A stretch of DNA of 64,000 nucleotides, from assembly GCF_947494015.1 (NCBI RefSeq), contig NZ_CANLTL010000006.1, positions 62,001-126,000 on the forward strand, in the 5' to 3' direction. Shown piece after piece: positions 1 through 64,000 of the stretch. A program made the position numbers and the translations under genes. The stretch is from an uncultured Cellulomonas sp. (GTDB lineage: Bacteria; Actinomycetota; Actinomycetes; Actinomycetales; Cellulomonadaceae). The notes under the pieces are model-generated. The model saw only the letters and a list, made by a program, of their open reading frames with translations, had not been told where the DNA came from and searched no databases. How positions within the stretch are numbered: position 1 is the stretch's first letter; every line of letters begins with the position of its first letter.

Positions 1-350
1 TAGCCGGCCATCGAGGCCGTCACCAGGATCACGAGCGTCTGGAGCGTCGCGGCGAGCAGGCTGTTGACCAGCCAGCGCACGACGGGCGTCCCGGAGGTGC
101 CCAGGATCGACTCGTACGCCTGCAGGGTGGGGTCGTCGGGGATCCACTGCGGCGTCGACGCGGCGGCCCCCGCCGTGGTCTTGAACGACGTCGTCAGCAT
201 GTAGATCAACGGGGAGATGAACACCAGCGTCAGGACGACGAGCAGCACGTAGAGCACCACGCGCCGGGAGCTGGTCCCCCGTCGCGCCGGCTCCGGGCTC
301 TGTGCCGTCCGCGGGGTGGGTGGCGTACGTGGCGCCGCGACCGTGCTCAT
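1..350 (-). CDS. Carbohydrate ABC transporter permease, MalG type (partial, cut by left edge)
   Basis: This is the N-terminal 116 or so residues of a binding-protein-dependent inner-membrane permease that would pair with the MalF-type permease just upstream to import a sugar. The start is the ATG at 350. A 30-residue basic N-terminus is followed by one hydrophobic segment (about residues 32-50, containing LVFISPLIYML) and the family's SFK loop, and the frame stays open to the window edge. The EAA loop that contacts the ATPase would lie outside the window. It is the third gene of a minus-strand operon, 39 bases after the MalF gene. The substrate cannot be told from the sequence. Confidence 0.85.
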   Translation of the reverse strand, partial: MSTVAAPRTPPTPRTAQSPEPARRGTSSRRVVLYVLLVVLTLVFISPLIYMLTTSFKTTAGAAASTPQWIPDDPTLQAYESILGTSGTPVVRWLVNSLLAATLQTLVILVTASMAG

Positions 351-48059: not shown

Positions 48060-48063
48060 CCGG

Positions 48064-49350
48064 TCAGCGCTCCGGGGCGAACGCGGCCCGGAAGGCGGCG
48101 GCCGACGTCGGCGAGCTGCTGAGGCGCCAGTCGGTCTCCTTGTTCTCGTCGAACCAGATCACCCCGCCCAGGTCGGGCTGGGCCGCCGCCCACGTGCCCA
48201 GAGCCGCCACCCAGGCCGCCTTGTCGCCGCCGAGCTCGGTCGACGCCGTCTCGGTCACCAGCAGCGGCTTGCCCGGCGCGAGCGCGCGGAGCTCGGCCAG
48301 GGTCGGGTCGAAGACCTCGGCCGGGGTGCGCCAGCGCTCCCAGGCCACCGAGGTGCCCCAGTTGTAGCCGTCCACCCCGACGACGTCGACGTAGTCGCCG
48401 CCGGGGTACAGCGCGGTCAGCGGCGTCGAGCCCGGGTAGACCACGTTCGGCGCCCACACCCACTGCACGGCGTGCGCGCCGCGGGCGGCGAACAGGTCGT
48501 GCACGTGGCGCCAGGCGGCGACGTGGTCCGCCGCGGTGGTCCCGTTCACCCCGGCCGACCAGGGGTACCAGTCCCCGTTCGCCTCGTGCGCGAACCGCAG
48601 CATGACCGGACCGCCCCAGGCCGCGAGCGCGTCGGCCCACGCGGTCAGGTAGGCGTCGTGGTCGCCGGCGACCACGGTCGACATCGCGAACCGCGGCTGG
48701 GTCACGCCGTCGGTCCACACCCACGGTTCCCAGGTGACGACCGGCACGGCGCCGGCGTCCACGACGGCCTGCAGCTTGGCGACGTCGGGCGCCTCGCCCC
48801 AGCCCGTGTACCACTGCAGGTACGAGGGGCCGACGCCGACGGTCGCGGCCGTGGCGGCGAGTGCCTGCGCGTCCAGCGGTCCCCAGGGGACCGTGACACC
48901 CAGCGGCACCGTGCGGCGGGCGACGTCGTCCGCGGCCGGCGCCGGGGTGGTGCTCCCGGTCGGCGGCTCGGGGACGGGCGCGGGCGGCGCAGGCTCCCCG
49001 GGGAGCGGCAGCGGCGCGACCGGCACGGGCACCGGCTCCGCGGGCGCCGTCGTCCCGCCCTTGCCGCCCCCGCCGCCCTTGCCCTGCCCGGACGGCGTCG
49101 AGGCCGTGGTCCTGGCCGTCATGGTCACCTCACCCGGCCACGCCACCGCGACGACGGCGGCATGCTGCGAGTGAGACGTGACCGCGGGCGCTGCACCGCC
49201 GGCGACCGCTGACCCGGTCGCGGCCGGCAGCGGCCCGTCCGCGACGACGGCCCGCGACGTGACCGGCGCGGTGGCCGCGTGCGTGGTCCCCGCCTGGGAC
49301 AGGAGAGCCGGCAGCAGCAGCGCCGCGCCGATCATCCGGGCTCTGCGCAT
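48064..49350 (-). CDS. Secreted GH26-like endo-beta-mannanase/xylanase
   Basis: This 428-residue secreted glycosidase has a signal peptide (MRRARMIGAALLLPALLSQAGTTHA) and a long Pro/Thr/Ala-rich linker to about residue 155. A (beta/alpha)8 domain of the GH26 family follows: RRTVPLGVTVPWGP, the acid/base Glu in RFAHEANGDWYPW (about residue 256), WVWAPNVVYPG and the nucleophile Glu in LLVTETAST (about residue 367). GH26 members cut mannan or xylan; exact specificity cannot be called. There is no carbohydrate-binding or SLH domain, so it is probably free. The ATG at 49350 has GAGAGGAA upstream. Confidence 0.88.
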   Translation of the reverse strand: MRRARMIGAALLLPALLSQAGTTHAATAPVTSRAVVADGPLPAATGSAVAGGAAPAVTSHSQHAAVVAVAWPGEVTMTARTTASTPSGQGKGGGGGKGGTTAPAEPVPVPVAPLPLPGEPAPPAPVPEPPTGSTTPAPAADDVARRTVPLGVTVPWGPLDAQALAATAATVGVGPSYLQWYTGWGEAPDVAKLQAVVDAGAVPVVTWEPWVWTDGVTQPRFAMSTVVAGDHDAYLTAWADALAAWGGPVMLRFAHEANGDWYPWSAGVNGTTAADHVAAWRHVHDLFAARGAHAVQWVWAPNVVYPGSTPLTALYPGGDYVDVVGVDGYNWGTSVAWERWRTPAEVFDPTLAELRALAPGKPLLVTETASTELGGDKAAWVAALGTWAAAQPDLGGVIWFDENKETDWRLSSSPTSAAAFRAAFAPER

Positions 49351-49710
49351 GGTGGTTCCTCTCGATGACGACGTCCTCCCTCCTCGCCATCGACGCCCCC
49401 GGGCACCGGCACGAGCGCGGCGGCCCCGGCCGGGGGCCATCCGGGTGCTCTACTCACCCGACCGGTGCACCCGGCGTCACCCGGTCGGTGGCGCGCTCGG
49501 CACGAAGGTGCGCGCGCTGCCCACGGGCCTGACCGGCACCGTGGAGGTGCTGGCGCAGGCGTTCGCCCCGCCGGACGACCCCGACCCGGTGGCGCTGCTC
49601 GAGGAGCACCGGGCGGTCGGCCGGGAGCACGACCTCGAGGTCCTCGTCGACGACGACGTCGATTCGGTCGCCCGGTACCTGCCGCCCGGGGCTCGGGCGT
49701 CGTCACGGCG
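49351..49710 (+). other. Intergenic stretch with a coding-like fragment (49445-49700)
   Basis: No complete gene is seen in this 360-bp gap between the GH26 start and the GH127 stop. On the plus strand, however, the frame from GTG 49445 has strong third-position GC and protein-like content (GTKVRALPTGLTGTVEVLAQ, DPVALLEEHRAVGREHDLEV, DDDVDSVARYLPPG) to about 49700. It has no stop of its own and runs into sequence antisense to GH127. It is best read as a gene remnant or chance coding-like sequence. The first 90 bp hold the GH26 promoter region. Confidence 0.35.
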
Positions 49711-51750
49711 TCAGGTGGGCACCCACACGCGCATGGTGGACGGGCCACGCGTCGCCCAGTCGTGGTACGGCCGCAGCACGATCTCGGTGCCCGCGGCGCC
49801 CTGGTCCGCGACCTCCCGGTCGATGCCGTCCCCGTACGGCCAGGCGTGCTCGGCCAGGTCCACCAGGGCGCCCCGCGCGACGACGTGGTCACCGCGGTCC
49901 TGCGGCGCCACCCCGGGATCGATCCGCACGACGTCGACGTGCGCCGTCCCCGGCAGGTCGACGGACTCCACGCACAGCACCTCCGGTCCCCGCTCGACCG
50001 CCACGCAGCCACGGACCGCGTCGATCCGTGGGTCGGCCCGGACGAACCGCGGCTCGAGGGGCAGCCCCAGGACGACCTCGTCACCCGGCGCGAAGTCGCA
50101 GGTGACCCGCACGGCACCGGGCTCGACCACCCGGCGCTCGCCGGCGACCTCCAGGGTCGCCCCGGTCGCCCAGGCGGGGACCCGCAGGGTCAGCGTCCAC
50201 CGGTGCGTGTCGACGCCGGCGACCCGCACGCGGACCTCCCCCGTGCGGGGGTAGTCCGTCACGACGTCGACCGCGACGGCGCGGCCGTCCGGCAGGGCGG
50301 TGCGGATCTCCGCCGGGGCGTACTGGTGGAGCTGGAGGCCGTCATCGTCCACCGTGGCCAGGTAGGCGGCCAGGCTCGCGAAGGTGCGGGCGACGTTGGT
50401 GGGGCAGCAGGAGACGCCGAACCACGGCGCCCGCAGGGACGAGGCGGCGCGTGGACTGGCCACGTCCTCCTCGGGCACCGTGGCCAGCTCCCGCTGGTGC
50501 AGGGTGTTCGTGTAGTAGAACGCGGTGCCCTCGGGGGACGGCGACGTCGCGACGACGTTGTACAGGGTCCGCTCGATGAGGTCACCGCGGGCGGGCGACC
50601 CGTCGGCGAGCAGCAGCCGCCAGCTGAGCATGACCGACCCGATCCCGGCGCACGTCTCGGAGTAGGCGCGGTCGGGGGGCAGCACGTAGTCCGGGCCGAA
50701 CGCCTCGTCCTGGTGCCGTGACCCCATCCCGCCGGTGAGGTAGGTGCGCCGGGCCACCGTGGTGTCGAGCTGGTGGCTGACGGCGTCGAGCAGGTCCCCG
50801 TCGCCGGTCTCGGACGCGAGGTCCACGGCGCCGGCCGACAGGTAGGTGGCGCGCACGGCGTGCCCGCGCAGCACGGTGGCGTCCCGCACCGGCAGGTCGT
50901 CCTGGAAGTACGCCCGTCCGAACTCGACGTCCTCGAGCACCCCGTGCCCGCGGCGCTCGAGGAACAGGCGCGCCTGCTCCAGGTACCGCTCCTCGCCGGT
51001 CACCCGGTACAGCTCGACGAGGGCCGGCTCGATCTCGGGGTGCCCGCACACCGATTCGATGCCGCCCGCACCGAACACCTCGCACACGTGGTCGGCGGCC
51101 CGCCGCGCCACGGTGACCAGTGCGTCGTCGCCGTCGGCGGGACGCGTCCGTGCCCGGGCGACGGCCGCCTGGACGAGGTGCCCGAAGCAGTAGAGCTCGT
51201 GGCCCCACTCCAGGTCGGAGTACCGGGGGGCCTGGCCGGGCCGGCCGAACCGGGTGCTGAGGTAGCCGTCCGGCTCCTGCGCCGCGGCGACGCGGGCCAC
51301 GATCGCCTCGAAGCGAGCCTCGAGGGCCTCGTCCCGGGTACGCCCGATCTCCCAGGCCATGGCCTCCAGGAGCTTGTACACCTCGGAGTCGGAGAACTCC
51401 CGTCCGCGGCGGTCCGCGGGCAGCCGTCCCTCGACCGCCGCGTCGAAGTTGCCCAGCCACCCCTCGCGCTCGAGCCACAGCTCGATGTGCGCCAGGGTGG
51501 CCGCGCCGTTGACCTGCTGGCGGCGGCCCCAGAAGCCGCCGGTGATGCGGACCTCGTCCAGGCCCAGCGGACGCAGCACGGCGCGGGACGGCACGACCGG
51601 GGCGATGGTGCCGGCCCGGCCGCCGGACGGCGTGGGCCCGGGCGCTGCGCCGGCCTCGGCATCGGGCGGGACCGGGACGGCGTCGCCGGTCGCGGTGGCA
51701 GCGGTGGTCGCCGTCGGCGCGGAGCTGCGGGACGTGGTGTCGGAAGTCAT
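49711..51750 (-). CDS. GH127 beta-L-arabinofuranosidase (DUF1680)
   Basis: This 679-residue cytoplasmic enzyme has the (alpha/alpha)6 barrel of GH127, which removes beta-linked L-arabinofuranose from plant glycans such as extensin. The residues equivalent to the Bifidobacterium HypBA1 active site line up: Glu349 in QDEAFG, Glu365 and Cys367 in SETCAG, and the Cys448-Cys449 pair in GVSCCPTN that holds zinc and the nucleophile. A 70-residue disordered N-terminus lacks a signal peptide. The ATG at 51750 lies 4 bases after the permease stop, so it is part of the importer operon and probably digests imported oligosaccharides. Confidence 0.93.
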   Translation of the reverse strand: MTSDTTSRSSAPTATTAATATGDAVPVPPDAEAGAAPGPTPSGGRAGTIAPVVPSRAVLRPLGLDEVRITGGFWGRRQQVNGAATLAHIELWLEREGWLGNFDAAVEGRLPADRRGREFSDSEVYKLLEAMAWEIGRTRDEALEARFEAIVARVAAAQEPDGYLSTRFGRPGQAPRYSDLEWGHELYCFGHLVQAAVARARTRPADGDDALVTVARRAADHVCEVFGAGGIESVCGHPEIEPALVELYRVTGEERYLEQARLFLERRGHGVLEDVEFGRAYFQDDLPVRDATVLRGHAVRATYLSAGAVDLASETGDGDLLDAVSHQLDTTVARRTYLTGGMGSRHQDEAFGPDYVLPPDRAYSETCAGIGSVMLSWRLLLADGSPARGDLIERTLYNVVATSPSPEGTAFYYTNTLHQRELATVPEEDVASPRAASSLRAPWFGVSCCPTNVARTFASLAAYLATVDDDGLQLHQYAPAEIRTALPDGRAVAVDVVTDYPRTGEVRVRVAGVDTHRWTLTLRVPAWATGATLEVAGERRVVEPGAVRVTCDFAPGDEVVLGLPLEPRFVRADPRIDAVRGCVAVERGPEVLCVESVDLPGTAHVDVVRIDPGVAPQDRGDHVVARGALVDLAEHAWPYGDGIDREVADQGAAGTEIVLRPYHDWATRGPSTMRVWVPT

Positions 51751-51754
51751 GGGT

Positions 51755-52660
51755 TCAACCTTTGAGTGCGCCGGACATGAAACCGCGTACGTAGTGACGC
51801 TGGAGGGCCAGGAACAGCACGACGCAGGGAAGAGCCAGCACGACGACACCCGCCTCGGTGGCGCCGTAGTCGATGATCCCCATCACCTGCTGGCGCATGT
51901 TCGCCACCGCGAGCGGCAGCGGCACCTTGGTGGCGTCGCTGATGAGGATCAGCGGGGCGATGAAGTCGTTCCAGGCGGCCAGGAACGCGAACAGCCCGAC
52001 CGTGATCAGCCCGGGCTTGACCGCCGGCACGAGCACCCGCACCAGCGCCGAGAACGTGCCGCAGCCGTCGACCAGCGCCGCCTCCTCGAGCTCCTTGGGG
52101 ACGGCCTCGAACGAGATCCGCATCATGAAGGTGGCGAACGGCAGCTGGAACATGGTCAGCACGAGCGCCAGCCCGACCAGGGAGTTCTGCAGGCCGATCG
52201 CGTTGAGCAGCACGTACAGCGGGATCAGCAGCGTCGCGTACGGGACCATGAGGATGGCCAGGGTCACCAGGAACAGCAGGTTCTTGCCCGGGAAGCGGAA
52301 CCTGGCGAACGCGTAGCCACCGAGCAGCGAGATGGACAGCGTGAACACCACGGTCAGCAGCGAGACGATCGTGGAGTTCAGCAAGTACTGGCCCAGCCCG
52401 GCCCCGTACGCGGCGAGCGTGGAGTAGTTGCCCAGCCCCCAGCCGTCGGTCTGCGCCGTACCGCCCTGCGGCGACACCGACGCGACCGCGGCCCACACCA
52501 GGGGCGCCAGGAACAGCAGCGCGAGCCCGCCGGTCAGGACGTAGTAGGGGGTGCGCAGCAGCGGGTTCGGGCCGTCGTCGCCGTGGTGGTGGTCCCCGCG
52601 ACCCGGGGCACGGCGGGTCGTCGTGCCGGCGGGGCCCGGCGCGTGGTCGGTTGCGGTCAC
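51755..52660 (-). CDS. Carbohydrate ABC transporter permease, MalG type
   Basis: This 301-residue six-helix permease is the second membrane half of the locus importer. After a 30-residue basic and Gly-rich N-terminus, LTGGLALLFLAPLVWAAVAS forms helix 1. The EAA loop reads LEEAALVDGCGTFSALVRV, followed by VPAVKPGL. The periplasmic loop GWGLGNYSTLAAYG is typical of MalG. The GTG at 52660 overlaps the preceding gene's end by sequence context (1 base apart). It sits between the MalF-type permease and GH127. Confidence 0.94.
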   Translation of the reverse strand: MTATDHAPGPAGTTTRRAPGRGDHHHGDDGPNPLLRTPYYVLTGGLALLFLAPLVWAAVASVSPQGGTAQTDGWGLGNYSTLAAYGAGLGQYLLNSTIVSLLTVVFTLSISLLGGYAFARFRFPGKNLLFLVTLAILMVPYATLLIPLYVLLNAIGLQNSLVGLALVLTMFQLPFATFMMRISFEAVPKELEEAALVDGCGTFSALVRVLVPAVKPGLITVGLFAFLAAWNDFIAPLILISDATKVPLPLAVANMRQQVMGIIDYGATEAGVVVLALPCVVLFLALQRHYVRGFMSGALKG

Positions 52661-52661
52661 G

Positions 52662-53618
52662 TCAGTTCTCCTTGCCGCGCAGCCCGCGGAACTGCAGGGC
52701 GTTGATGGCCAGCAGGGCGATCAGGACCATGACCGACAGCGCGGCGGCCAGCCCCAGATCGTTGCCGCCGGCGAAGGCCATGTTGTAGATGAGCTGGACG
52801 ATCGTGATCGTGCTGTTGTCCGGTCCGCCCTTGGTCAGGATGTAGAACTGGTCGAACGCGAGCAGGGACCCGGTGACGCACAGGATCGTGCACAGCGCCA
52901 GGGATGGCCGCAGCAGCGGCAGCGTGATCCGGCTGAAGATCTGCCAGCGGTTCGCGCCGTCGATGTGCGCGGCCTCGTACACGTCACCGGGGATGCCCTG
53001 CAGCCCCACCATCAGCAGCAGCATGTAGAACCCGGCGAACCGCCACACGATGAGGAACACCGTCGACCACAGCGCCGAGGTCGGCGTCCCCAGGAACGAG
53101 ATCGGCTCCTGGACGACTCCGAGCGCCATCAGGGCCGGGTTGATCGGGCTGCTCTGCGGGGAGTAGATCGCGTAGAACAGCAGCGACGCGGACGCCAGAC
53201 CGAGTGCGCTCGGCACGAGGATCGCGGTGCGCAGGACGCTGCGCCACCGGCTCGCCTCCTGCACGACCATCGCCAGGCCCAGCGCGACGGCCAGCAGCAG
53301 GACCGTGGTGATCACCGTGTACTTCACGGTGAACACGATCGCCGGCCACAGCAGGCGGTTGTCGGCGGCGTCGACGTAGTTCTCCGGCAGGTTCAACCCC
53401 CGGTTGCCGGCGAACAGACCCCAGTCGGACACCGACATCTGCAGCACGAGCAGCACCGGCAGGACGAAGAACACCAGGACCATGACGCCGGTCGGGGCCG
53501 CGTAGAGCATGCCGGACAGCGAGCGGGAGCCCCGCAGTCGGCGGGGGCGGGGTACGCCCCCGGACCGCGACTTCTCGCGGGCGGCCTCCGGGACCGTCGG
53601 GGTGGTGAGGTTGGCCAC
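52662..53618 (-). CDS. Carbohydrate ABC transporter permease, MalF type
   Basis: This 318-residue permease carries the EAA loop YEAAHIDGANRWQIFSR with ITLPLLRPSL. Helix 1 is GVMVLVFFVLPVLLVLQMSV, and the later ILTKGGPDNSTITIVQLIYNMAF is diagnostic for sugar MalF homologues. GTG at 53618 (VANLTTPTVPEAAREK) has GAAGGAGA upstream and is a better start than the in-frame site 57 bases earlier. It belongs to the operon led by the binding protein at 55031. Confidence 0.94.
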   Translation of the reverse strand: MANLTTPTVPEAAREKSRSGGVPRPRRLRGSRSLSGMLYAAPTGVMVLVFFVLPVLLVLQMSVSDWGLFAGNRGLNLPENYVDAADNRLLWPAIVFTVKYTVITTVLLLAVALGLAMVVQEASRWRSVLRTAILVPSALGLASASLLFYAIYSPQSSPINPALMALGVVQEPISFLGTPTSALWSTVFLIVWRFAGFYMLLLMVGLQGIPGDVYEAAHIDGANRWQIFSRITLPLLRPSLALCTILCVTGSLLAFDQFYILTKGGPDNSTITIVQLIYNMAFAGGNDLGLAAALSVMVLIALLAINALQFRGLRGKEN

Positions 53619-53696
53619 GGCGTCTCCTTCGCGGGGCCGGCGGGCCGGTGGCGCCGACGACGACGTCGGCACCACCGGCCCGTGGGGACGGGTGGA

Positions 53697-55031
53697 CTAC
53701 TGGCTGAGCACGTCGGTGATCGCCTCGTTGTCCTCCTCGACGCTGTCCCCGTCACCGAACACGGCGTCGCGGAACAGCGTCACCCAGGGCGACCCGGCCG
53801 CGTTGTAGGCCTGCTGGAAGTTCGGGGCGTACGGCGTGCGGCTCTCCGGTGCACCCGCGACCTCGTTGATGGTCACCAGCCGCGGGTCGGCGGCGGCGTA
53901 CTCGTTGTCCGCGAGGTCCGTGCGCGCCGGGGTGCTGCCGTTCGCGGCGAGCACCTCGACCTGGGCCTCCTCGGACATCATCCAGGCCAGGAAGTTCCAC
54001 GCCTGGTCGGTGACGTCGGAGTCCTTGGAGATGCCGATGCCGTCGCCACCGATGAACGTCGCGGCGCCGCCGTCGACCCCGGGGATGGGGGCCACGCCGA
54101 CGTCGACCGTCTCGTCGGCGGTCGCCAGCAGCGTGGCCGGGTACGGCATGACGCCGACGTTGCCCTGCTGGAAGTCGCCGACCCAGGTGGCACCGGTCTC
54201 GTCCTGCGACGCCGGCGCGACGGCGCCCGCCTCCCACAGCTCGCGCCAGGTGGAGTACACCTCCTGCGCGGAGTCGGACGCGAGCATCGCCTCGGTGCCG
54301 TCCTCGTTCATCACCTCGTCGCCCGACGCCCAGATCATCGGGAACCAGGTGAAGACGCCGCAGCCGCCGCAGTTGCCACCGAAGTAGGTGCCGTAGACGC
54401 CGGGCTTGCCCAGGGCCTGGATCGCCAGCGCGTGCTCCTTGAACTCCTCGAGGGTGGTCGGTCCCTGCTCGGGGTCCAGGCCGGCCTCGGCGTAGAGCTC
54501 CTTGTTGTAGAAGATGACCGACAGGTCCAGCACGAACGGCAGCACGTACTGCGCATCCTCGTAGGTGCCGGCCTCGATGTGGCCCTGGTTGATGTCGTCG
54601 GCGAACGGCAGCGACTCGATGCGCTCGCTGATGTCCTGGAACAGACCGGCCTCGGTCCAGTTCGGCACGTAGACGATGTCCGCCGCGAACAGGTCGGGCA
54701 GGTCGCCGCTGCCGGCCGCCGCACCGACCCGGGCGACGTAGTCGTCGTTCGGCGTGATGGTGAGCTCCACCTGGTTCTCGTGGGTCTCGTTGTAGGCGTC
54801 CACGAGCAGGTTCGCCTGGAACTCCATGGGGGCGCGCGTCCACAGCGTCAGCGTGGTGCCGTCGTCGACGCCCTCCCACGCCTCGGTGTCGCCGCCGGTG
54901 TCGCCGCCGGCGGCGGGCGGGGTGTCACCACCGTCGCCGGAACCGCAGGCGGTCAGGCCTACGGCGAGCAGGCTGACACCGGCGACGCCGGCCAGCGCGC
55001 GACGCGCACGCGTCAAGCGGGTGGTCCTCAT
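53697..55031 (-). CDS. Sugar ABC transporter substrate-binding lipoprotein
   Basis: This 444-residue family-1 binding lipoprotein has signal residues 1-28 and lipobox LTAC (Cys29), followed by a Gly/Asp-rich spacer. The mature protein contains TLTLWTRAPMEFQANLLVDAYNE and VYVPNWTEAGLFQDISERI. A cysteine trio, GGNCGGCGVFTWFP (about residues 222-235), is unusual for the family and could make a disulfide near the sugar cleft. The ATG at 55031 follows GAGGAG. It is the first gene of the arabinoside importer operon, facing the LacI gene. Confidence 0.94.
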   Translation of the reverse strand: MRTTRLTRARRALAGVAGVSLLAVGLTACGSGDGGDTPPAAGGDTGGDTEAWEGVDDGTTLTLWTRAPMEFQANLLVDAYNETHENQVELTITPNDDYVARVGAAAGSGDLPDLFAADIVYVPNWTEAGLFQDISERIESLPFADDINQGHIEAGTYEDAQYVLPFVLDLSVIFYNKELYAEAGLDPEQGPTTLEEFKEHALAIQALGKPGVYGTYFGGNCGGCGVFTWFPMIWASGDEVMNEDGTEAMLASDSAQEVYSTWRELWEAGAVAPASQDETGATWVGDFQQGNVGVMPYPATLLATADETVDVGVAPIPGVDGGAATFIGGDGIGISKDSDVTDQAWNFLAWMMSEEAQVEVLAANGSTPARTDLADNEYAAADPRLVTINEVAGAPESRTPYAPNFQQAYNAAGSPWVTLFRDAVFGDGDSVEEDNEAITDVLSQ

Positions 55032-55357
55032 CTCATCTCCTCGAGCTCGTCGTTGAGCGCCGCACGCATCTGCCCCGGCGTGCACCAAGGGCCACCAGGG
55101 CCCCTGCAACGCACCTACTGCTGGTTTCTGCACCTCGATCGGTAACCGCACCGGCGTCTGCACCGGATGGCTCGGACGGTGCGTCCTTGCTGGGACAACA
55201 CCACGATGAGCCGTCCACGTGCCGACCTCGCCACGTACCCGAAAAGGCTTTCTGAATCTATGGCGCACGAGGATGAGCGTCAAGGGCCCCTCGCGCTACA
55301 GTCGCCCCGAGGCCGGATCGAGACCTGATCGCGACCTGCGTCGACGAGGAGGTGCGC
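55032..55357. promoter_or_regulatory. Divergent control region between importer and LacI genes
   Basis: This 326-bp region holds the promoters of the importer operon and of LacI. Six (T/C)GCA(C/A)C half-sites occur, four of them TGCA(C/A)C at 55081, 55105, 55129 and 55159. The others are CGCACC at 55147 and its complement at 55179. An AT-rich patch at 55241-55260 contains AAAGGCTTT, an interrupted palindrome (AAAG, CTTT). Either feature could be the LacI operator; neither is proven. Confidence 0.45.
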
Positions 55358-56392
55358 GTGGCGTCACAGGCAGGCCCGGCAGGAGCATCCAAGGCGACCA
55401 CGTTGACCGACGTCGCCCGCCTCGCCGGGGTCTCGATCGCGACCGCGTCCAAGGCGCTCAACGGCCGTGCACAGGTCAAGGCCGAGACGCGCGCCCGGGT
55501 CATCGACGCCGCCGAGCGGCTGCAGTTCTCACCGAACGCGCTGGCCCGCGGGCTGCTCGCGGGCCGCTCGGGGACCGTGGGGCTGATCACGTCCGACCTG
55601 GAGGGCCGGTTCTCGATCCCGGTGCTCATGGGCGCGGAGGACGCCTTCGGCTCGGGCCAGACCTCGGTCTTCCTGTGCGACGCCCGCGGCGACGCCATCC
55701 GCGAGCAGCACCACGTCCGCGCGCTGCTCTCCCGGCGGGTCGACGGCCTCATCGTCGTGGGCGCGCGGCCCGACCCGCGCCCCCCGCTCGCCGCGGAGGT
55801 CCCCATCCCGGTGGTGTACGCCTACGCGCCGTCCGAGGACCCCGGCGACGTGTCGATCGTCAGCGACAACGTCGGCGGTGGCCGGATGGCGGTCGAACAC
55901 CTCGTCGCGTGCGGCCGGCAGCGGATCGCGCACATCAGTGGGGACCCGACCTACGGTGCGGCGCACGACCGCGAGCGCGGGGCCCTGGAGGCACTCGGCG
56001 AGGCGGGACTCGCGCTGGCCGGGGGGCGGGCGTACTACGGCAGCTGGTCCGAGGCGTGGGGCCGCGGCGCGACCCGGATGCTGCTCGAGCGCGACCCCGA
56101 CGTGGACGCGATCTTCGCCGGCTCGGACCAGATCGCCCGGGGCGTGCTCGACGCGCTGCACGAGGCGGGCCGGGACGTCCCCGGGGACGTGGCGGTGATC
56201 GGGTTCGACAACTGGGAGGTGCTCGCCACGAACGCCCGTCCCCCGCTGACCAGCGTGGACATCAACCTCGAGCACCTGGGCCGGGTCGCCGCCCAGCGGC
56301 TGTTCGCCGCGATCGACGGCAGCACCCGGTCGGGGACCGAGTCGCTGCCGTGCCGCGTGGTCGCGCGCGGGTCCACCACGCCGCTGGACTGA
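55358..56392 (+). CDS. LacI-family transcriptional repressor
   Basis: This 344-residue regulator has a LacI HTH at residues 15-40 (TLTDVARLAGVSIATASKAL) with the hinge helix NALARGLLAG, then a periplasmic-binding-protein-like sensor domain. Sensor landmarks are GTVGLITSDLEGRFSIPVL, SIVSDNVGGGRMAVEHLV, AIFAGSDQIARGVLDAL and VAVIGFDN. GTG at 55358 has GAGGAGG 5 bases upstream. It is divergent from the importer operon and probably represses it until a sugar, perhaps arabinose or an arabinoside, binds. Confidence 0.95.
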   Translation: MASQAGPAGASKATTLTDVARLAGVSIATASKALNGRAQVKAETRARVIDAAERLQFSPNALARGLLAGRSGTVGLITSDLEGRFSIPVLMGAEDAFGSGQTSVFLCDARGDAIREQHHVRALLSRRVDGLIVVGARPDPRPPLAAEVPIPVVYAYAPSEDPGDVSIVSDNVGGGRMAVEHLVACGRQRIAHISGDPTYGAAHDRERGALEALGEAGLALAGGRAYYGSWSEAWGRGATRMLLERDPDVDAIFAGSDQIARGVLDALHEAGRDVPGDVAVIGFDNWEVLATNARPPLTSVDINLEHLGRVAAQRLFAAIDGSTRSGTESLPCRVVARGSTTPLD

Positions 56393-56482
56393 GCCCCGCC
56401 GGTGGGCGGTCGTGGGTCCCGGCACACCGTGCCGGCGGGCGCCTCGGCACCGTGGCGCAGCCTCGTGGCGACCTCGGCGCGA

Positions 56483-56517
56483 CGAGGGGCGTGCCGGTGG
56501 GTCCGGCACGCCCCTCG
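56483..56517. terminator. Perfect 15-bp bidirectional hairpin terminator
   Basis: CGAGGGGCGTGCCGG (56483-56497) pairs fully with CCGGCACGCCCCTCG (56503-56517) around a TGGGT loop. It lies between the convergent LacI and GH43-SLH genes and is a strong terminator for both. Confidence 0.8.
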
Positions 56518-56533
56518 ATCCCTGCCGTGCGCA

Positions 56534-59500
56534 CTACGGCGCTGTCACCACCGCAGCGGTCGTCAGGAACCTGTCGTACCGGTGGAGGAACGCCGCCATC
56601 GCCTGCCGGCTGATCGGCACGGCGGTCCCGAACGAGCCGTCCGGATACCCCTTCGCGATCCCCGCCCCCTCCAGCCACCCGATCGCCTCCGCGAACGGAT
56701 GCCCCGGCGCCACGTCGGTGAACGTCGCCGCCGAGCCCGGCACCGGCTCACCGGCCGCCCGGTGCAGGAACGCCGCCATCGCCTGCCGGCTCACCGGACG
56801 CGTCGGACCGAACGTCCCGTCCGCGTACCCACCGGCCAGGTCCATCTCGGCCATCCACTCGATCTGCACGAAGAACGGATCCGTCGGATGCACGTCGGAG
56901 AACGACTGCGTCCCCTGCGCCGGCACCCAGTCCGCCCCCGCGTACCGGTACATGAACGCCGCCATCGCCTGCCGGCTGACCGCGGCCGCCGGACGGAAGA
57001 GGACCGTGTCACCGGCCTGGGAGCCCTCGGCCAGTCCGCGCTCGGCCATCCACCGGATCTCGTCGTAGAACACGTGACCTGGGGAGACGTCGACGAACAC
57101 CGGCGCACCCGGCTCGGGCTGCGGGTCCGGGTCGGGATCGGGGTCCGGGTCGGGATCGGGGTCCGGGTCCGGGCCGGGGTCGACGTCCGCCGCGAACACC
57201 TCCCACTCGCTGACGGCCACCGCGGACCGCGAGTCGCCGTCGTCGGCAGGGTGGGTGGTGAAGGTCGCCCGCAGCTGCGTGGTGGTGACGGGGTCGAACG
57301 TCGTGACGTTCACGCCCTCCGGGGACGTCCCGTAGCCGCTGGCGCCGGTGACGGGGACCCACGCCTGCGCGGCGTCGTCCCAGTGCTCGAGCACCCAGGA
57401 CTGCGGCACCGCTACGCCCACGCCCGACCCGGCAGGGGAGTCGCTCCAGAACCTGACCTCGGTCCGGTCGACGGTCACCTCCCGGTCCCAGGCGTACTGC
57501 AGCCACCGGGTCTCCGGCTCGGCGCCGGTCCAGGTCCCCCACACCTCGCTCTGGTCGCCACCGGCGTTGACTCCCCGGCCGTCGTTGACGGCGTCGACGT
57601 CGTTCCACCCGGCGGTGAAGGACGCCGTCGGGGTCGCCAGCGGCGCGATGTTGCCGACCAGCGGGGCGTCCGGGTCGAGCGGGACCTCGACCGTCGTGAC
57701 GGCCGAGGTGTTGCCCGCGACGTCGGTCGCCCGCACGTGCACGTCGTGCGGCAGGCCGTCCATCACGACCGGCCCGGTGTACGCGGTCCAGCCGCCGAGC
57801 CCGTCGACGGAGTACTCGAGCGAGTCGACCCCGGACACCGCGTCGGTCGCCTCGGCGGACACGGTCCGGCCCCCGGCGTGGAAGCCGGCCACGACCTCGG
57901 GACCGTCGACGTCGATCGACACGGTGAGCGTCGCCTCCGCGGTGTTGCCGCCGGCGTCCTCGACGGTCACGGCGAGAGCCTGCTCACCGGGCCCGGTGAG
58001 CTCGACCGTCGCCTCCCGGCTAGCCACGACGACCGGCTCGCCGTCGTCGACCTGCGTGGTGATCGCCAGCGCACCGTCGCGGTCGTCGTCGGCGGTGATC
58101 CGTGCGGTGACCGCGGAGGTGTACCAGCCGGCGTCACCCACGACCCCGGACGCCTGGACCTGCACCGTGGGGGCGGCGGTGTCCGGCTCCTCGGTCAGCA
58201 CGCGCCACTCGGCGACCGCCAGGGACCCGGTGCGGTCCGCGGTGCCCTGCGACTGCAGGACGGCGCGCAGCTGCGTCGTCGTCACCGGGTCGAACGTGGT
58301 CACCTCGGCCGTGTCCGCCGAGGTGCCGTACCCGCTGGCGCCCGGGACCTCGACCCACGACGCCGTCTCCGCGTGCCAGTACTCCAGGTGCCACGACTGC
58401 GGCACCTTGACGCCCTCCTCGGCGTCGTCGGTCACGTCCTGGAAGAACCGGATCTCCGAGCGCCCCACGGTGACCGGCTCCGACCAGGTGTAGCGGACCC
58501 ACTGCTCACCGACCTGCGGCCAGGTACCCCACAGCAGGGTCTGATCGACCGGGGCGGTCGGCAGCACCCCGTCGTTGAGCGCCGTCACCCTGTTGTGCCC
58601 GGCGGTGAAGGACGCGTCCGGCGTCGCCGCGGGGGCGACGTTGGTGCGCCACGGCGCGTCCGGCAGGACGGTCACCGAGGCCTCGACGTACCCGGCCGCA
58701 TGGCCGAGCACCCAGCCCTGGACGGTGACGGTGCCCGCCTCCGCGAGCGCGGCGGGGTCGACGTCGTCCCACCGGACCGGCAGCTCGAGCTCGACGCCTG
58801 CGGGGTAGGCCGCGGTGACGGTCGCCGGCAGGGAGGCGCCGCCCTCGGCACCCACCCAGGTCGTCGCGGTGACCGGCTCGATGCTCGTGGCCTGCTCCGC
58901 CAGCACCATCCACTCCTGCACCGCGACCGCGGCGTAGGTGACCGGGTCGGTGGCGGACGGCGACCCGTCGAGGACCGCGCGCAGCTGCGTCGTGGTGACC
59001 GGGTCGAAGGTGACCTCGTGGAGCACGCCGTGCTCGGTCGGGTAGCCGCTCGGGTCCGGGACGTCCCGCCACTCGCCGCTCGCGAGGTCGCGGTACTGCA
59101 GGACCCAGGCGTCAGGGGTGGACACGCCGGTGCCCACGCCGGGCGGCTGGTCACGCCAGAACTGGATCCGCGAGCCGCTCACCCGCATCGGCTGGTCCCA
59201 GGTGTACTGCGCCCAGACCTGCGCGGGCCGGTTGCTGGACCACGTCCCCCACAGGTCCGGCGGGAGCGGGTTCGGCCGGATGATCTCGTCGTTGAGCGAC
59301 TTGACCCAATACTGGGTGGGCACCGGCTCGTTGGACACGGTGACGGTCGCGGCGTGCGCGATGTTCGCGCGAGGGGTGCGGTCCGGCCCGCGCTCGGGGG
59401 TGGTCTGCACCGGCAGGATCCGCGCCGGGGTCTGCGTGTCGTCCCACTCGAGATCGTCGATCGCGACCGACCGGCGGAAGTGGTTGCCGCCCACCGCGTC

Positions 59501-60427
59501 GGCGGTGTGGTACGTCAGGTACCACTGGCCCCTGAACTCGACGATGCCGGGGTGGCTGGTGGTCGAGGACACCGGCGGCAGGATCGTGCCGCGGTAGGTC
59601 CACGGGCCCTCCGGCGCCGGCGCGGTCCCATAGGCGAGGCACGCGTGGTAGTTGGCCGGTGTGCACGGCGAGGTGGGGCCGGCGTTGTTGCCCGCGTAGG
59701 CGAGGTAGTAGGTGCCGTTGCGCTCGAACACCCACGGCGCCTCGAAGAACCCGCTCAGCCCGGTCACCGTCTGCACGTCACCGCGCAGGGTCCTCATGTC
59801 CGGCTCGAGGCCGATCCGGCGCAGGTTCCCGAAGCTGCCCCACCACATGTGCACCTCGCCGGACTCGGTGATGTGCACCGTCGGGTCGATGTTGTGGATG
59901 GTGTTGCCGAGGATGCTCTGGGACACGATGGGGCCGCCGGCGTGGTCGGTCCACGGCCCGAGCGGGTCGTCGGCGACCGCGACGCCGATGCCGAAGGCGT
60001 CGGGCGAGGTGCTGCCCGCCTCGTGCACCGGGACGTACCAGTAGAAGCGGCCGTCCGTGCCCTCGACGACCTCACCCGCGTAGGCGCGTCCCGGGGTCGC
60101 CCAGTCGAACACCTCCTCGGGTCGCATCAGCGCCGGGTGGTGCTGCCACGCCCCGGAGTCGAGATCCGCCGCGACGTCGGTGGTCGAGAACGCCTGCCAC
60201 TCGTTCATGACGAAGTCGTTGGTCGTCGGGCCCGCCTCGTCGCGCCCCGCGTAGATGTACAGGGTGTCGTCGACGACGAGGGGTGCGGGGTCGGCCGAGT
60301 AGACGGTGCCGTCCCCGAGGATCGGGTTCTCGACGGCCGAGGCCACGGTCGGGGCTGCCAGGGCGAGAGCGAGGGTCACGGCCAGCAACGCCGGCCCCCT
60401 CGGTCGCCGTCGGTCGGTCGCGGGCAT
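56534..60427 (-). CDS. Giant secreted GH43 enzyme with discoidin-like modules and three SLH domains
   Basis: This 1297-residue surface enzyme has a signal peptide ending near residue 31 (VASA). The GH43 five-bladed propeller (about 32-340) carries the catalytic Asp46 (SADPAPL), Asp181 (IDPTVHI) and Glu229 (FFEAPWVF). Three discoidin/F5-8C-like modules follow (NIAHAATVT, NVAPAATPDASFTAG, NIAPLATPTASFTAG), interspersed with Ig-like domains. An Asp-Pro linker (about 1082-1102) leads to three SLH repeats (about 1108-1290, VSRQAMAAFxxRYAG type) for non-covalent wall anchoring. GH43 members are mostly arabinanases, arabinofuranosidases or xylosidases. The ATG at 60427 follows AAGGAG. The SLH DNA is nearly identical to that of the next gene. 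Confidence 0.92.
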   Translation of the reverse strand: MPATDRRRPRGPALLAVTLALALAAPTVASAVENPILGDGTVYSADPAPLVVDDTLYIYAGRDEAGPTTNDFVMNEWQAFSTTDVAADLDSGAWQHHPALMRPEEVFDWATPGRAYAGEVVEGTDGRFYWYVPVHEAGSTSPDAFGIGVAVADDPLGPWTDHAGGPIVSQSILGNTIHNIDPTVHITESGEVHMWWGSFGNLRRIGLEPDMRTLRGDVQTVTGLSGFFEAPWVFERNGTYYLAYAGNNAGPTSPCTPANYHACLAYGTAPAPEGPWTYRGTILPPVSSTTSHPGIVEFRGQWYLTYHTADAVGGNHFRRSVAIDDLEWDDTQTPARILPVQTTPERGPDRTPRANIAHAATVTVSNEPVPTQYWVKSLNDEIIRPNPLPPDLWGTWSSNRPAQVWAQYTWDQPMRVSGSRIQFWRDQPPGVGTGVSTPDAWVLQYRDLASGEWRDVPDPSGYPTEHGVLHEVTFDPVTTTQLRAVLDGSPSATDPVTYAAVAVQEWMVLAEQATSIEPVTATTWVGAEGGASLPATVTAAYPAGVELELPVRWDDVDPAALAEAGTVTVQGWVLGHAAGYVEASVTVLPDAPWRTNVAPAATPDASFTAGHNRVTALNDGVLPTAPVDQTLLWGTWPQVGEQWVRYTWSEPVTVGRSEIRFFQDVTDDAEEGVKVPQSWHLEYWHAETASWVEVPGASGYGTSADTAEVTTFDPVTTTQLRAVLQSQGTADRTGSLAVAEWRVLTEEPDTAAPTVQVQASGVVGDAGWYTSAVTARITADDDRDGALAITTQVDDGEPVVVASREATVELTGPGEQALAVTVEDAGGNTAEATLTVSIDVDGPEVVAGFHAGGRTVSAEATDAVSGVDSLEYSVDGLGGWTAYTGPVVMDGLPHDVHVRATDVAGNTSAVTTVEVPLDPDAPLVGNIAPLATPTASFTAGWNDVDAVNDGRGVNAGGDQSEVWGTWTGAEPETRWLQYAWDREVTVDRTEVRFWSDSPAGSGVGVAVPQSWVLEHWDDAAQAWVPVTGASGYGTSPEGVNVTTFDPVTTTQLRATFTTHPADDGDSRSAVAVSEWEVFAADVDPGPDPDPDPDPDPDPDPDPQPEPGAPVFVDVSPGHVFYDEIRWMAERGLAEGSQAGDTVLFRPAAAVSRQAMAAFMYRYAGADWVPAQGTQSFSDVHPTDPFFVQIEWMAEMDLAGGYADGTFGPTRPVSRQAMAAFLHRAAGEPVPGSAATFTDVAPGHPFAEAIGWLEGAGIAKGYPDGSFGTAVPISRQAMAAFLHRYDRFLTTAAVVTAP
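56575..57100. repeat. SLH-coding repeat, copy A (pairs with 60575-61100)
   Basis: This region matches 60575-61100 at an exact 4,000-bp offset with no indel. About 395 bp (56575-56969) differ at only about 12 positions by eye. A more divergent 85-bp stretch follows, then about 46 identical bases (57055-57100). It encodes the three SLH domains of the GH43 protein. Confidence 0.9.
57121..57180. repeat. Imperfect tandem repeat coding an Asp-Pro linker
   Basis: GGGTCCGGGTCGGGATC-type units repeat within the GH43-SLH gene and encode alternating Asp-Pro residues, an extended rigid linker just before the SLH domains. Confidence 0.85.
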
Positions 60428-60491
60428 GGTGCTCCTTGGGCTGCGCTGCATCGGGAGGACGCGCTGTGCGCGCGGGGGGGGTCGGTGAGGC

Positions 60492-60530
60492 CGGACGCGC
60501 CGGTGAGCGGGATGCTCACCGGCGCGTCCG
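60492..60530 (-). terminator. Perfect 17-bp hairpin after the right-edge SLH gene
   Basis: The arms at 60492-60508 (CGGACGCGCCGGTGAGC) and 60514-60530 (GCTCACCGGCGCGTCCG) are exact complements with a GGGAT loop. It lies 6 bases past the stop of the upstream SLH gene (minus strand), separating it from the GH43 gene. Confidence 0.8.
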
Positions 60531-60536
60531 CGTGCA

Positions 60537-63500
60537 TCACTGCTGGGCCAGGTCGCCCGTCTGCGGCAGGGCGTCGTACCGGTGGAGGAACGCCGCCATA
60601 GCCTGCCGGCTGATCGGCACGGCGGTCCCGAACGAGCCGTCCGGATACCCCCGGGCGATCTCGACCTCCTCCAGCCACCCGATCGCCTCCGCGAACGGAT
60701 GCCCCGGCGCCACGTCGGTGAACGTCGCCGCCGAGCCCGGCACCGGCTCACCGGCCGCCCGGTGCAGGAACGCCGCCATCGCCTGCCGGCTCACCGGACG
60801 CGTCGGACCAAACGTCCCGTCCGCGTACCCACCGGCCAGGTCCATCTCGGCCATCCACTCGATCTGCACATAGAACGGATCCGTCGGGTGCACGTCGGAG
60901 AACGACTGCGTCCCCTGCGCCGGCACCCAGTCCGCCCCCGCGTACCGGTACATGAACGCCGCCATCGCCTGCCGGCTCATCGGGGACGCCGGGTAGAAGA
61001 ACACCTGGTCCCCGACCTGCGTGCCGGTGGACAGGCCCGACTCGGCCAGCCATCGGATCTCGTCGTAGAACACGTGACCTGGGGAGACGTCGACGAACAC
61101 GGGCGCCACCGGGTCGGGGTCGTCCACCGCGGGCACGTCGACCGACGTCGCCGTCGACACGTTCCCGACGGCGTCGGTGGCCCGCGCGTGCACGGTCACC
61201 GCGTCGTCACCGACGGTGACGGGCCCGGTGTAGGCCGTCCACTCGCCGTCACCCAGCCGGTACTGGACCGAGGCCACCCCGGAGCCGGCGTCGGTCGCCG
61301 TGACCACGACCCGGCGGCTGTCGCCGTCGAGCGCGGCCGCGACCTGCGGACCGGAGCGGTCGATCCCCACCGTGCGCTCGACCACGGCCGAGACGTTGCC
61401 GGCTGCGTCGGTCGCCCGGACGGCGACGCGGTGCTGCCCCTCGCCGGTGACCACGACCGGGGCGGTGTAAGCCGCCCAGGCGCCGTCGTCGACCTGGATC
61501 TGGACGGTGGGCGCCCCGGGGCGGTCGTCGGTCGCCGTGACCGTGACCGTCACGTCACCGGCGACCCAGCCGGAGGCCGAGGGGGTCGGCGCCAGGGCCA
61601 CCGAGACCTCGGGGGCGGTGGTGTCGGGATCGGTCGAGCCGCCGCCGGTCCCGACGGTGACCGTCGCGACGGCCGTGGTCGTCCCGGCGCCCTCGACCGT
61701 GCCGGTCACCTCGAAGGTGCCGTCCGCGGCGTAGTCGGCGGGGTCGATCTCCTCCCAGGTGACCGGGAGCATCTCGCGCGAGCCGTCGTTGTACTGCACG
61801 ACCACCGTCCCGGGCAGCTGCGGGGCGACCCCCGTGGCCGTCCGGACCGCCACGGGGTCGATCGTGTTGATCTGCCCCGGCGGCGTGGACCGGACCCAGA
61901 CGGTGACCGTCGGGGTCAGCGGCGTGCCCTCGGCGATGCCCTGCAGGGTGAACTGCCCGTCCGCGGCGACCTGGTCGGCGGTGATCTCCGGCCAGACGAC
62001 GCCCACGGTGCTGCGGCTGCCGTCGGCGTAGACGCCCACGACCTCGTCGGGCAGGTCGGGGACCACGCCCACCGCGGTGCGCACGTGCAGCGGCTCGAGG
62101 GTCTCGGGCGAGTCGGCGAACACCTCCCACTCGGCGACGCCGATCGCCGAGTACGACGTGGCGTCCGCGTTCGGCGCGGCGTCGAAGGTGGCCCGCAGCG
62201 CATCGGTGGTGACCGCGTCGAACGTGGTCACGTTGGTCCCGGTGCGCTCGGTGCCGTACCCGCTCGGGCCGGGCACGTCGACCCACGCACCCGCGGCGTC
62301 GCGGTACTGGATGACCCACGACTCCGGCACCGCCACGCCCTGGCCGCTGCCGGCCTCCGCGTCGGTCCAGAACATGATCTCCGAGCCGCTCACCCGCACC
62401 GGGCCGTCCCAGGTGTACTGCAGCCACTGCTGCTCGGGCCGGCTGCCGGACCACGTGCCCCACACCGCGTCCTGCGCGCCGCCGGCGTTCTGCCCGGCGC
62501 CGTCGTTGACCGCGGTCACGCGGTTCCACCCCGCGGTGTAGGACGCCGTCGGCGTCGCCGCCGGGGCGACGTTCGTGGTGCCGCCCGCCGGTGCCTGCCC
62601 GACGACGACGATCTCGGTGCCGGCCTCGGCAGCGCCGTCGGAGGCGGTCAGCCGGAACCGGTACTCGCCGTCGGCGGTGAACCGGACGACCGTGGTCGCC
62701 GCGGTGTCGTCGTCGAAGAGCACCGTGGCGCCCTCGGGTGCGGACACCAGGCTCCACCGCGAGGACAGCTCACCCGCGGGCAGGCCGTCGTCGCGCACGG
62801 TGCCGATCAGCCGGGCGGACCCGGCCTGGGAGTAGACGGCGTCCTGGATCGCGCTCACCGACGGTGCGGCGTTGTCGACCGCCGGCGCCGCCAGGCCCGT
62901 GCTGCGGACCTGGAGCTCCTTGACGCCCGTCCGGAAGCCGGGGGCGTGCGTCACGGTGAGCCGGATCCGCTGCGTCGTGATCTCCGGGAAGAGCACCCGG
63001 TTGAGGTTCCCCTGCGGGTAGACCGGGTCCTTCGCCTGGCCCGGGACCGGCCGCCAGGTGTCACCGTCGAGGTACTCGACGGTGTACATCGACGGGGCGG
63101 CGTACCCCGGGCGCGTCCCGGCCAGGCGACCGCCCTGGGGCGAGTCGGACGACGACGTGCGGTAGAAGTACACCCGCACCTCGTCGAGGGCCTGCGCCGA
63201 GCCGAGATCGATCTCGAGCGAGTCCTCGGCGTTCGGTGAGCCGGCGGTGCCCCAGAACGGCTCGTTGATGGTGGTGCCGTTGACCGCGGCCTGCGGGCTG
63301 CTGAACGGGTCGTCGGCCGTGAAGGTCGCGGTGACCTGGGCGCCCTCGGCGAGGTTGGGCGTCCCGGTGGTGCCGGTCGCGATGTCCGCGCCGGCCTTGG
63401 CGAACAGGTCCACCACGCGGGCGTCGTCGGCGAATCGCACCTCGTTGGGCGCCTGCAGGCTCTGCTGGGTGACCGTCACGACCGTCACGTCGTCGTCCTT

Positions 63501-64000
63501 CTCCACGACGGTCCCGGTGGCCGGGTCGTAGACCACGCGGCCCAGGGAGTCGGTGGTGAAGGCCAGCTCGCCGTCGAGGAAGGCCGAGTAGCCCTCGGGG
63601 ACGCCCTCGCCGTACGGGCGCTGCCCGTCGCCGGGCTCGTCCCACACGATGGTCAGGTCGCGGTCCCGCAGGGCGATGTTGTTGGCGGTGAAGTACGGCC
63701 AGTCGATGTCGATCGGGTCGAGCTCGATCATCGCGTCCGAGCGAGGACGCAGGCCCATCGCGTCCTCGATCATTGTGAAGTTGGTGGTGCCGAGGATCGT
63801 GTGGTGGATCCACGACCGGTAGCCGATGTCCTGCTCGTCGCCCCACTCGGTGTTCGCCGACCCGGTGTTCCAGAACTCGTTCTGGTCCGGCAGCCGGTTG
63901 TCACCGTCGATGTAGTGCGCCCACGCGTTCCAGTACAGGAGCTTCTTGTAGTAGTCCGAGCCGACGTACTCGTTCGGGTAGTTGCGCAGGACGCTGGACA
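60537..64000 (-). CDS. Large secreted multidomain glycosidase-like SLH protein (partial, cut by right edge)
   Basis: This is the C-terminal 1,150 or so residues of an SLH-anchored protein; the frame is open through the right edge. The first visible part (RNYPNEYVG, DYYKKLLYWNAWAHYIDGDN, GYRSWIHHTILGTTNFTMIEDAMG and NNIALRDRDLTIVWDE) looks like the end of an alpha/alpha-barrel glycosidase. The family cannot be named safely because the active site is mostly outside. Next come a discoidin-like module (NLAEGAQVTATFTADDPF), a PKD-like domain, a second discoidin-like module (NVAPAATPTASYTAGWN), two bacterial Ig-like (Big_4 type) units, two Ig-like domains (ATDAAGNVSAV, ATDAVGNVSTA) and three SLH repeats. 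It is the likely partner of the adjacent GH43 enzyme. Confidence 0.85.
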   Translation of the reverse strand, partial: SSVLRNYPNEYVGSDYYKKLLYWNAWAHYIDGDNRLPDQNEFWNTGSANTEWGDEQDIGYRSWIHHTILGTTNFTMIEDAMGLRPRSDAMIELDPIDIDWPYFTANNIALRDRDLTIVWDEPGDGQRPYGEGVPEGYSAFLDGELAFTTDSLGRVVYDPATGTVVEKDDDVTVVTVTQQSLQAPNEVRFADDARVVDLFAKAGADIATGTTGTPNLAEGAQVTATFTADDPFSSPQAAVNGTTINEPFWGTAGSPNAEDSLEIDLGSAQALDEVRVYFYRTSSSDSPQGGRLAGTRPGYAAPSMYTVEYLDGDTWRPVPGQAKDPVYPQGNLNRVLFPEITTQRIRLTVTHAPGFRTGVKELQVRSTGLAAPAVDNAAPSVSAIQDAVYSQAGSARLIGTVRDDGLPAGELSSRWSLVSAPEGATVLFDDDTAATTVVRFTADGEYRFRLTASDGAAEAGTEIVVVGQAPAGGTTNVAPAATPTASYTAGWNRVTAVNDGAGQNAGGAQDAVWGTWSGSRPEQQWLQYTWDGPVRVSGSEIMFWTDAEAGSGQGVAVPESWVIQYRDAAGAWVDVPGPSGYGTERTGTNVTTFDAVTTDALRATFDAAPNADATSYSAIGVAEWEVFADSPETLEPLHVRTAVGVVPDLPDEVVGVYADGSRSTVGVVWPEITADQVAADGQFTLQGIAEGTPLTPTVTVWVRSTPPGQINTIDPVAVRTATGVAPQLPGTVVVQYNDGSREMLPVTWEEIDPADYAADGTFEVTGTVEGAGTTTAVATVTVGTGGGSTDPDTTAPEVSVALAPTPSASGWVAGDVTVTVTATDDRPGAPTVQIQVDDGAWAAYTAPVVVTGEGQHRVAVRATDAAGNVSAVVERTVGIDRSGPQVAAALDGDSRRVVVTATDAGSGVASVQYRLGDGEWTAYTGPVTVGDDAVTVHARATDAVGNVSTATSVDVPAVDDPDPVAPVFVDVSPGHVFYDEIRWLAESGLSTGTQVGDQVFFYPASPMSRQAMAAFMYRYAGADWVPAQGTQSFSDVHPTDPFYVQIEWMAEMDLAGGYADGTFGPTRPVSRQAMAAFLHRAAGEPVPGSAATFTDVAPGHPFAEAIGWLEEVEIARGYPDGSFGTAVPISRQAMAAFLHRYDALPQTGDLAQQ
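60575..61100. repeat. SLH-coding repeat, copy B (pairs with 56575-57100)
   Basis: This is the second member of the 4,000-bp-offset direct repeat, encoding the SLH domains of the partial gene. The most divergent part (about 60970-61054) lies in the first SLH repeat. Confidence 0.9.

Follow-up and report, generated by a model that had tools for sequence, protein, structure and literature searches.

The DNA analysed here (64,000 nucleotides, called the window below) spans positions 62001-126000 of contig NZ_CANLTL010000006.1 from an uncultured Cellulomonas sp. (GCF_947494015.1; genome of 4.28 Mb in 44 contigs), and its right-hand part contains a gene cluster for a substrate-binding lipoprotein (SBP), two ATP-binding cassette (ABC) permeases, a LacI-family regulator and three glycoside hydrolases (GH) of families GH127, GH43 and GH121, the latter two carrying surface-layer homology (SLH) domains. 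This locus is very probably a utilization system for the hydroxyproline-linked beta-L-arabinooligosaccharides of extensin-type glycoproteins, in which both surface enzymes bear SLH modules as putative wall anchors. The eight genes named in a preliminary description of the window are all present, at or near the positions it gave, and are listed below with the other features; the extended coordinate is the window numbering carried on into the contig past position 64000.

48064-49350, minus strand: GH26 (PF02156, 49.9 bits)
49711-51750, minus strand: GH127, putatively cytoplasmic, encoded at the end of the importer operon (PF07944/PF20736/PF20737)
51755-52660, minus strand: ABC permease B (PF00528, syntenic)
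52662-53675, minus strand: ABC permease A (PF00528, syntenic)
53697-55031, minus strand: SBP, predicted beta-arabinobiose type (413 bits to 6lce)
55239-55254, no strand: candidate LacI operator O1, CNGAAAN4TTTCNG (core in 46/46 intergenic regions)
55255-55283, minus strand: promoter-like TTGACG-17-TAGATT of the importer operon (promoter scan)
55352-56392, plus strand: LacI-family regulator, BauR-like (PF00356/PF13377)
56483-56517, no strand: perfect hairpin in the interval between the LacI and SLH-GH43 genes (GC-rich inverted repeat, 15-nt stem)
56534-60424, minus strand: putatively SLH-anchored GH43, predicted HypAA type (PF04616 and SLH)
56582-57097, minus strand: approximate SLH part of the GH43 protein, as delimited by its NF033190 match
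60492-60530, no strand: perfect hairpin in the interval between the GH121 and GH43 genes (GC-rich inverted repeat, 17-nt stem)
60537-64000 and on to extended 65924, minus strand: putatively SLH-anchored GH121, predicted beta-L-arabinobiosidase (741 bits to 6m5a)
60582-61097, minus strand: approximate SLH part of the GH121 protein, as delimited by its NF033190 match
extended 65986-66000: candidate operator O2 before GH121 (matrix search)

The right-edge protein, which the preliminary description recognized as an SLH protein while leaving its family unnamed, belongs by sequence to GH121 and is predicted to be a beta-L-arabinobiosidase of the HypBA2 family. Its gene is cut by the window edge, and the whole protein in the contig comprises 1795 aa with a signal-peptide-like start. 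The 741-bit match to the solved catalytic region of HypBA2 (6m5a) extends across residues 44-848, where E364, D482 and E683 align with E383, D515 and E713 of HypBA2, reported as essential in an excerpt of PMC7263609, and all three are invariant in a 20-member family alignment. The GH121 model is matched at E 1e-60 in 38 of the 221 genomes scanned from the same bacterial family, 20 of which (own included) score at least 1205 bits, while in the genus GH121 is found in one of five genomes, ours only. Mostly in three genera of the family (g6, g9 and g19) there is also a divergent set of GH121-like proteins, which score about 400-570 bits on the HypBA2 model. This set accompanies a canonical GH121 in genomes G110 and G126 and may be a subfamily acting on another substrate.

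The other giant SLH protein contains the GH43 domain PF04616 together with SLH, as had been described, and is assigned by similarity to the HypAA type. The HypAA proteins of three Xanthomonas loci have the locus GH43 as their best match in this genome (55, 55 and 56%), the second best reaching 29%, in a comparison with the loci of this genome's 16 GH43 matches. For the GH43 of genome G375 (2.1 Mb, from another family of the same order, probably Bifidobacterium), the five best matches listed all fall on the locus GH43 (34%), whose gene adjoins GH121.

The importer genes described earlier encode a lipoprotein-type SBP and two PF00528 permeases. The best solved relative of the SBP is 6lce, the runner-up reaching 102 bits as against 413, and 6LCE is identified in PMC8106489 as the Bifidobacterium longum protein that binds beta-arabinobiose; the transported sugar would be beta-arabinobiose.

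The GH127 protein contains the three Pfam domains of its family, and on inspection its N-terminus has no hydrophobic stretch, in agreement with the earlier statement that it lacks a signal peptide. Its active-site residues, also noted before, are conserved in the alignment to HypBA1 (3wkw), comprising the zinc/cysteine site, which we take to be E322, E338, C340, C417 and C418 in HypBA1 numbering, and the four substrate residues of HypBA1. The latter are given as H142, Y145, H194 and R273 in an excerpt of PMC10850190. Elsewhere the genome encodes another GH127 of this subtype (C1:126821-127996; L193:3733-6657, plus strand), in a long open frame starting upstream of the gene.

Homologous loci were compared in 100 neighbourhoods, namely 20 from the bacterial family (own included) and 80 named loci (the best 80 of 121 relatives), two sets which overlap and sometimes share a genome. 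A GH43 relative is found in 17 of the 19 other family neighbourhoods, where the stretch sometimes ends with the contig. G375 contains the order LacI<SBP>perm>perm>GH127>GH121>GH43, its LacI shares 52% identity with ours, and GAAAN4TTTC sites lie between its LacI and SBP genes, as one does here. Synteny is conserved among homologous loci, and G375 has the gene set and order of the pathway. The same order is known from the hyp cluster of B. longum JCM 1217 (BLLJ_0208-0213, with BauR1), as far as excerpts of PMC7263609 and PMC5928203 describe it, and that cluster has in common with ours the SBP, two permeases, GH127, GH121, GH43 and LacI, with GH121 and GH43 placed outside the cell and GH127 inside. 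However, HypBA2 and HypAA of B. longum are held by a C-terminal membrane anchor in these excerpts, whereas the present enzymes carry SLH; the present GH127 belongs to another subgroup than the B. longum type; and GH121 and GH43 form a separate unit beyond LacI.

In Xanthomonas euvesicatoria, activities of XeHypBA1, XeHypBA2 and XeHypAA on Ara4-Hyp and Ara3-Hyp (arabinooligosaccharides linked to hydroxyproline, Hyp) have been shown, according to an excerpt of PMC6085000. The Xanthomonas loci share with ours a GH121 and an adjacent HypAA-type GH43, the latter 53-57% identical to ours in the named loci. The Xanthomonas enzymes are secreted and anchorless in that account, in contrast to the SLH-bearing ones here. 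XeHypBA1 is a GH146 enzyme where the present counterpart is GH127; in the named Xanthomonas loci no importer unit was seen. The pathway itself is known; what varies here is the SLH display, the arrangement of operators and the GH127, which is more distant. A pathway for extensin arabinosides characterized in gut bifidobacteria and Xanthomonas is in this way extended to a plant-polymer-degrading actinobacterium with another mode of holding the enzymes at the surface.

In the proposed pathway, the HypAA-type GH43 would act at the cell surface and take the terminal alpha-1,3-arabinose off Ara4-Hyp. Ara3-Hyp would be the substrate of GH121, which would free beta-1,2-arabinobiose; the importer, made up of the lipoprotein and the two permeases, would take up this disaccharide, and the cytoplasmic GH127 would cleave it to two arabinoses. 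LacI would repress the importer operon via O1, and probably the GH121 promoter via O2, until released by a pathway sugar. The division into surface enzymes, importer and inner GH127 proposed in the preliminary description fits the B. longum system and the synteny and can be retained, but its target was too broad: instead of arabinoglycans such as arabinan or mannan in general, GH121, the 6lce-type SBP and the HypAA-type GH43 make hydroxyproline-linked beta-L-arabinooligosaccharides the likelier substrate.

Several observations weigh against this assignment. GH121 scores 1235 bits and so falls below the cut-off of the NCBIfam HypBA2 equivalog (3200), although that cut-off is reached by none of the 221 family and 396 order genomes scanned, which indicates a narrow model. 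Among solved structures, 6ex6 (302 bits) and 4qjy (301) match GH127 better than HypBA1 3wkw does (256). The top NCBIfam model of GH127 is aceric acid hydrolase (340 bits versus a cut-off of 950), and GH127 shares 34% identity with the GH127 of G375; the exact specificity of GH127 is the weakest link of the pathway. The SBP of the importer unit is found in 10 of the 19 other family neighbourhoods, some of which end with the contig. Our own O2 has no TAnnnT 18 bp on, where 20 of 37 related sites have one.

The region between SBP and LacI contains the candidate operator O1. Among the 100 neighbourhoods, 46 have a divergent LacI-SBP intergenic region, and GAAAN4TTTC, a motif first spotted in the same sequences later counted, is present in all 46 (43 distinct) versus 0.2% of single-base shuffles. 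A promoter of the form TTGACn-16..19-nAnnnT lies within 60 bp on the 5' side of the motif in 41 of the 46 loci, a count made without shuffle control. In our locus, the promoter at 55283-55255 is directly followed by O1 at 55254-55239; it is the sole promoter-like site in 47900-64000, where 0.3 are expected in shuffles, and CNGAAAN4TTTCNG occurs in one place in the genome. The BauR1 regulons of bifidobacteria include hypBA1, hypBA2 and the importer, as stated in an excerpt of PMC5928203. O1 and O2 are conserved candidate operators through which LacI may repress the locus, and the local LacI would bind both; such a concrete operator pair makes the regulon testable across many genera.

A strict palindrome before GH121 occurs in 7 of the 100 loci, which led to a search with an operator matrix trained on 42 sites of other genomes' importer operators. 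O1 scores 27.3 and O2 17.6, which makes them the best and second-best sites in 78 kb, where no other site scores above 4.9; the maxima in a further 155 kb of this genome and in 1 Mb of Markov-generated sequence are 8.7 and 12.3, respectively. A site scoring at least 8 stands before GH121 in 56 of the 100 loci versus 0 of 100 in a stretch within the gene; the 56 include no locus from Streptomyces or Xanthomonas, and GH121 lies directly behind GH127 in most Streptomyces loci. The sequence CGAAAN4TTGCGG has a single occurrence in the genome, which is O2. In 37 distinct GAAAN4TTGC sites, TAnnnT is located exactly 18 bp past TTGCnn in 20, the other spacings between 12 and 24 yielding none, and a further GAAA is located 9 or 10 bp upstream in 33. 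The GAAAN4TTGC site probably overlaps the -35 box, and such overlap would account for its asymmetry.

It is unlikely that O2 belongs to another regulator and that the surface enzymes stand outside the local LacI regulon. The right half of O2-type sites is consistently TTGC and not TTTC (37 distinct sites), and another LacI (33-35% identity to ours) lies directly before GH121 in the family genomes G042, G040 and G069. However, the score of O2 on a matrix built from other genomes' importer operators exceeds all maxima found elsewhere, the TTGC half coincides with the -35 element of the 20 sites with TAnnnT at 18 bp, and no LacI is annotated between our GH121 and the metE-type gene next to it.

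Both the GH121 and GH43 proteins have Pfam SLH matches and a three-repeat match at the C-terminal end and, by inspection, signal-peptide-like starts. SLH anchors on both outer enzymes are rare among relatives: by Pfam, SLH is found in one of the 20 GH121 proteins of the family and in one of 15 aligned GH43 proteins, our own in each case, and with a model built from our six repeats it is found in one of the 80 named loci, that of Serinibacter arcticus (L098). A combination of SLH anchoring with GH127 had been suspected to be uncommon, and these counts bear this out, as does the SLH match (E 1e-5) in 32 of the 221 family genomes, 26 of which have one or two only. Neither an SLH-anchored GH121 nor a GH121 in Cellulomonas-type bacteria was found reported in the open-access literature; subscription papers were not searched.

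Across 535 nt, the two SLH modules of the locus share 93% DNA identity, including uninterrupted identical stretches as long as 142 nt, and their protein sequences are 90% identical; for the next-closest module in the genome, identity drops to 76-79%. The Serinibacter locus resembles ours in bearing SLH on both GH121 and GH43, plus a third SLH protein, but its order differs (LacI-SBP-perm-perm-GH127-GH121-GH43), and its modules are 85-89% alike mutually and 44-46% to our GH121 module. In the tree, the two GH121 proteins are not joined, and their sisterhood is rejected by the approximately unbiased (AU) test (p 0.006; 51 rows), so that a common origin of SLH-GH121 with Serinibacter is rejected under the model. 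Because this pair was chosen once the first tree had been seen and our GH121 forms a long branch, the AU result supports two separate gains with moderate strength.

Outside the locus there are 20 open frames with SLH matches, which brings the total for the genome to 22. Carbohydrate-active domains are contained in 13 of these 20 (15 of 22 with the locus), comprising two GH3, four GH43, one each of GH10, GH13, GH62, GH51-type arabinofuranosidase and pectate lyase, and two rhamnogalacturonan lyases, while the remainder are three amidases, one GDSL lipase, one 5'-nucleotidase and two proteins without a catalytic domain. The genome is thus one whose plant-wall enzymes are often SLH-tagged, in a family where any SLH match is rare. 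The three amidase-domain proteins (L182, L186 and L191) bear SLH triplets as well, and the pairing of an amidase with a wall anchor is unusual.

It is rather improbable that the enzymes stay unattached despite their SLH triplets because the wall lacks a pyruvylated polymer. Anchoring is disfavoured by the sole PF04230 protein of the genome, which is weak (37 bits, and 16 bits versus a cut-off of 213 for the CsaB model), and by the family at large, where PF04230 is found in 19 of the 32 SLH genomes versus 150 of 221 overall and shows no association with SLH. However, a set of 22 SLH proteins, 15 of them carbohydrate-active, points to selection for display, and non-pyruvylated SLH ligands are conceivable; wall attachment of GH121 and GH43 is favoured here. 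PF04230 pyruvyltransferase-like genes are located near SLH genes in G203 (C14:184608-186003) and G004 (C18:24260-39004), which is a lead for the wall ligand.

A wider scheme is put forward tentatively, with less than even confidence. The SLH anchor may be a cassette that comes to be shared by every surface enzyme of a locus, that two actinobacterial lineages acquired independently on one and the same pair, GH121 and GH43, and that recombination homogenizes within each genome. The same scheme comprises a two-operator regulon, where the repressor site is within the -35 box of GH121 (weaker, asymmetric) and just past the -10 box of the importer (stronger), so that GH121 would be a wall-bound sentry enzyme, expressed first and feeding the inducer.

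It is very improbable that the locus serves arabinan, arabinogalactan or mannan in general, with hemicellulose or pectin side chains as the substrates of GH26 and GH43, since the adjacency of GH26 to GH127, the frequent arabinan activity of GH43 families pointed out in the preliminary description and the weak matches of NCBIfam arabinanase models to the locus GH43 are opposed by GH121 and the 6lce-type binding protein, by HypAA as the closest GH43 type, and by the count of GH26 (0 of 19 other family neighbourhoods and 0 of 80 named loci). The GH26 gene, formerly included in the proposed arabinoglycan locus, is missing from all homologous neighbourhoods scanned and is regarded as a bystander.

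The hairpins which had been described as terminators isolating the units are present as perfect inverted repeats, but their terminator role is only inferred, as no T run follows them and a consensus terminator scan gave 2 sites versus 1.4 in shuffles, neither sited between units. No Rfam match was found in 47900-64000. On the right side, the locus is bounded by a cobalamin-independent methionine synthase gene (metE-type; L003:9118-11565, plus strand), divergent from GH121. On the left, a DEAH-type helicase with DUF3418 (HrpA-like; window 43452-48059, plus strand) is convergent with the GH26 gene, and the sole tRNA in the window is a tRNA-Arg (CCG) at 14404-14488 on the plus strand.

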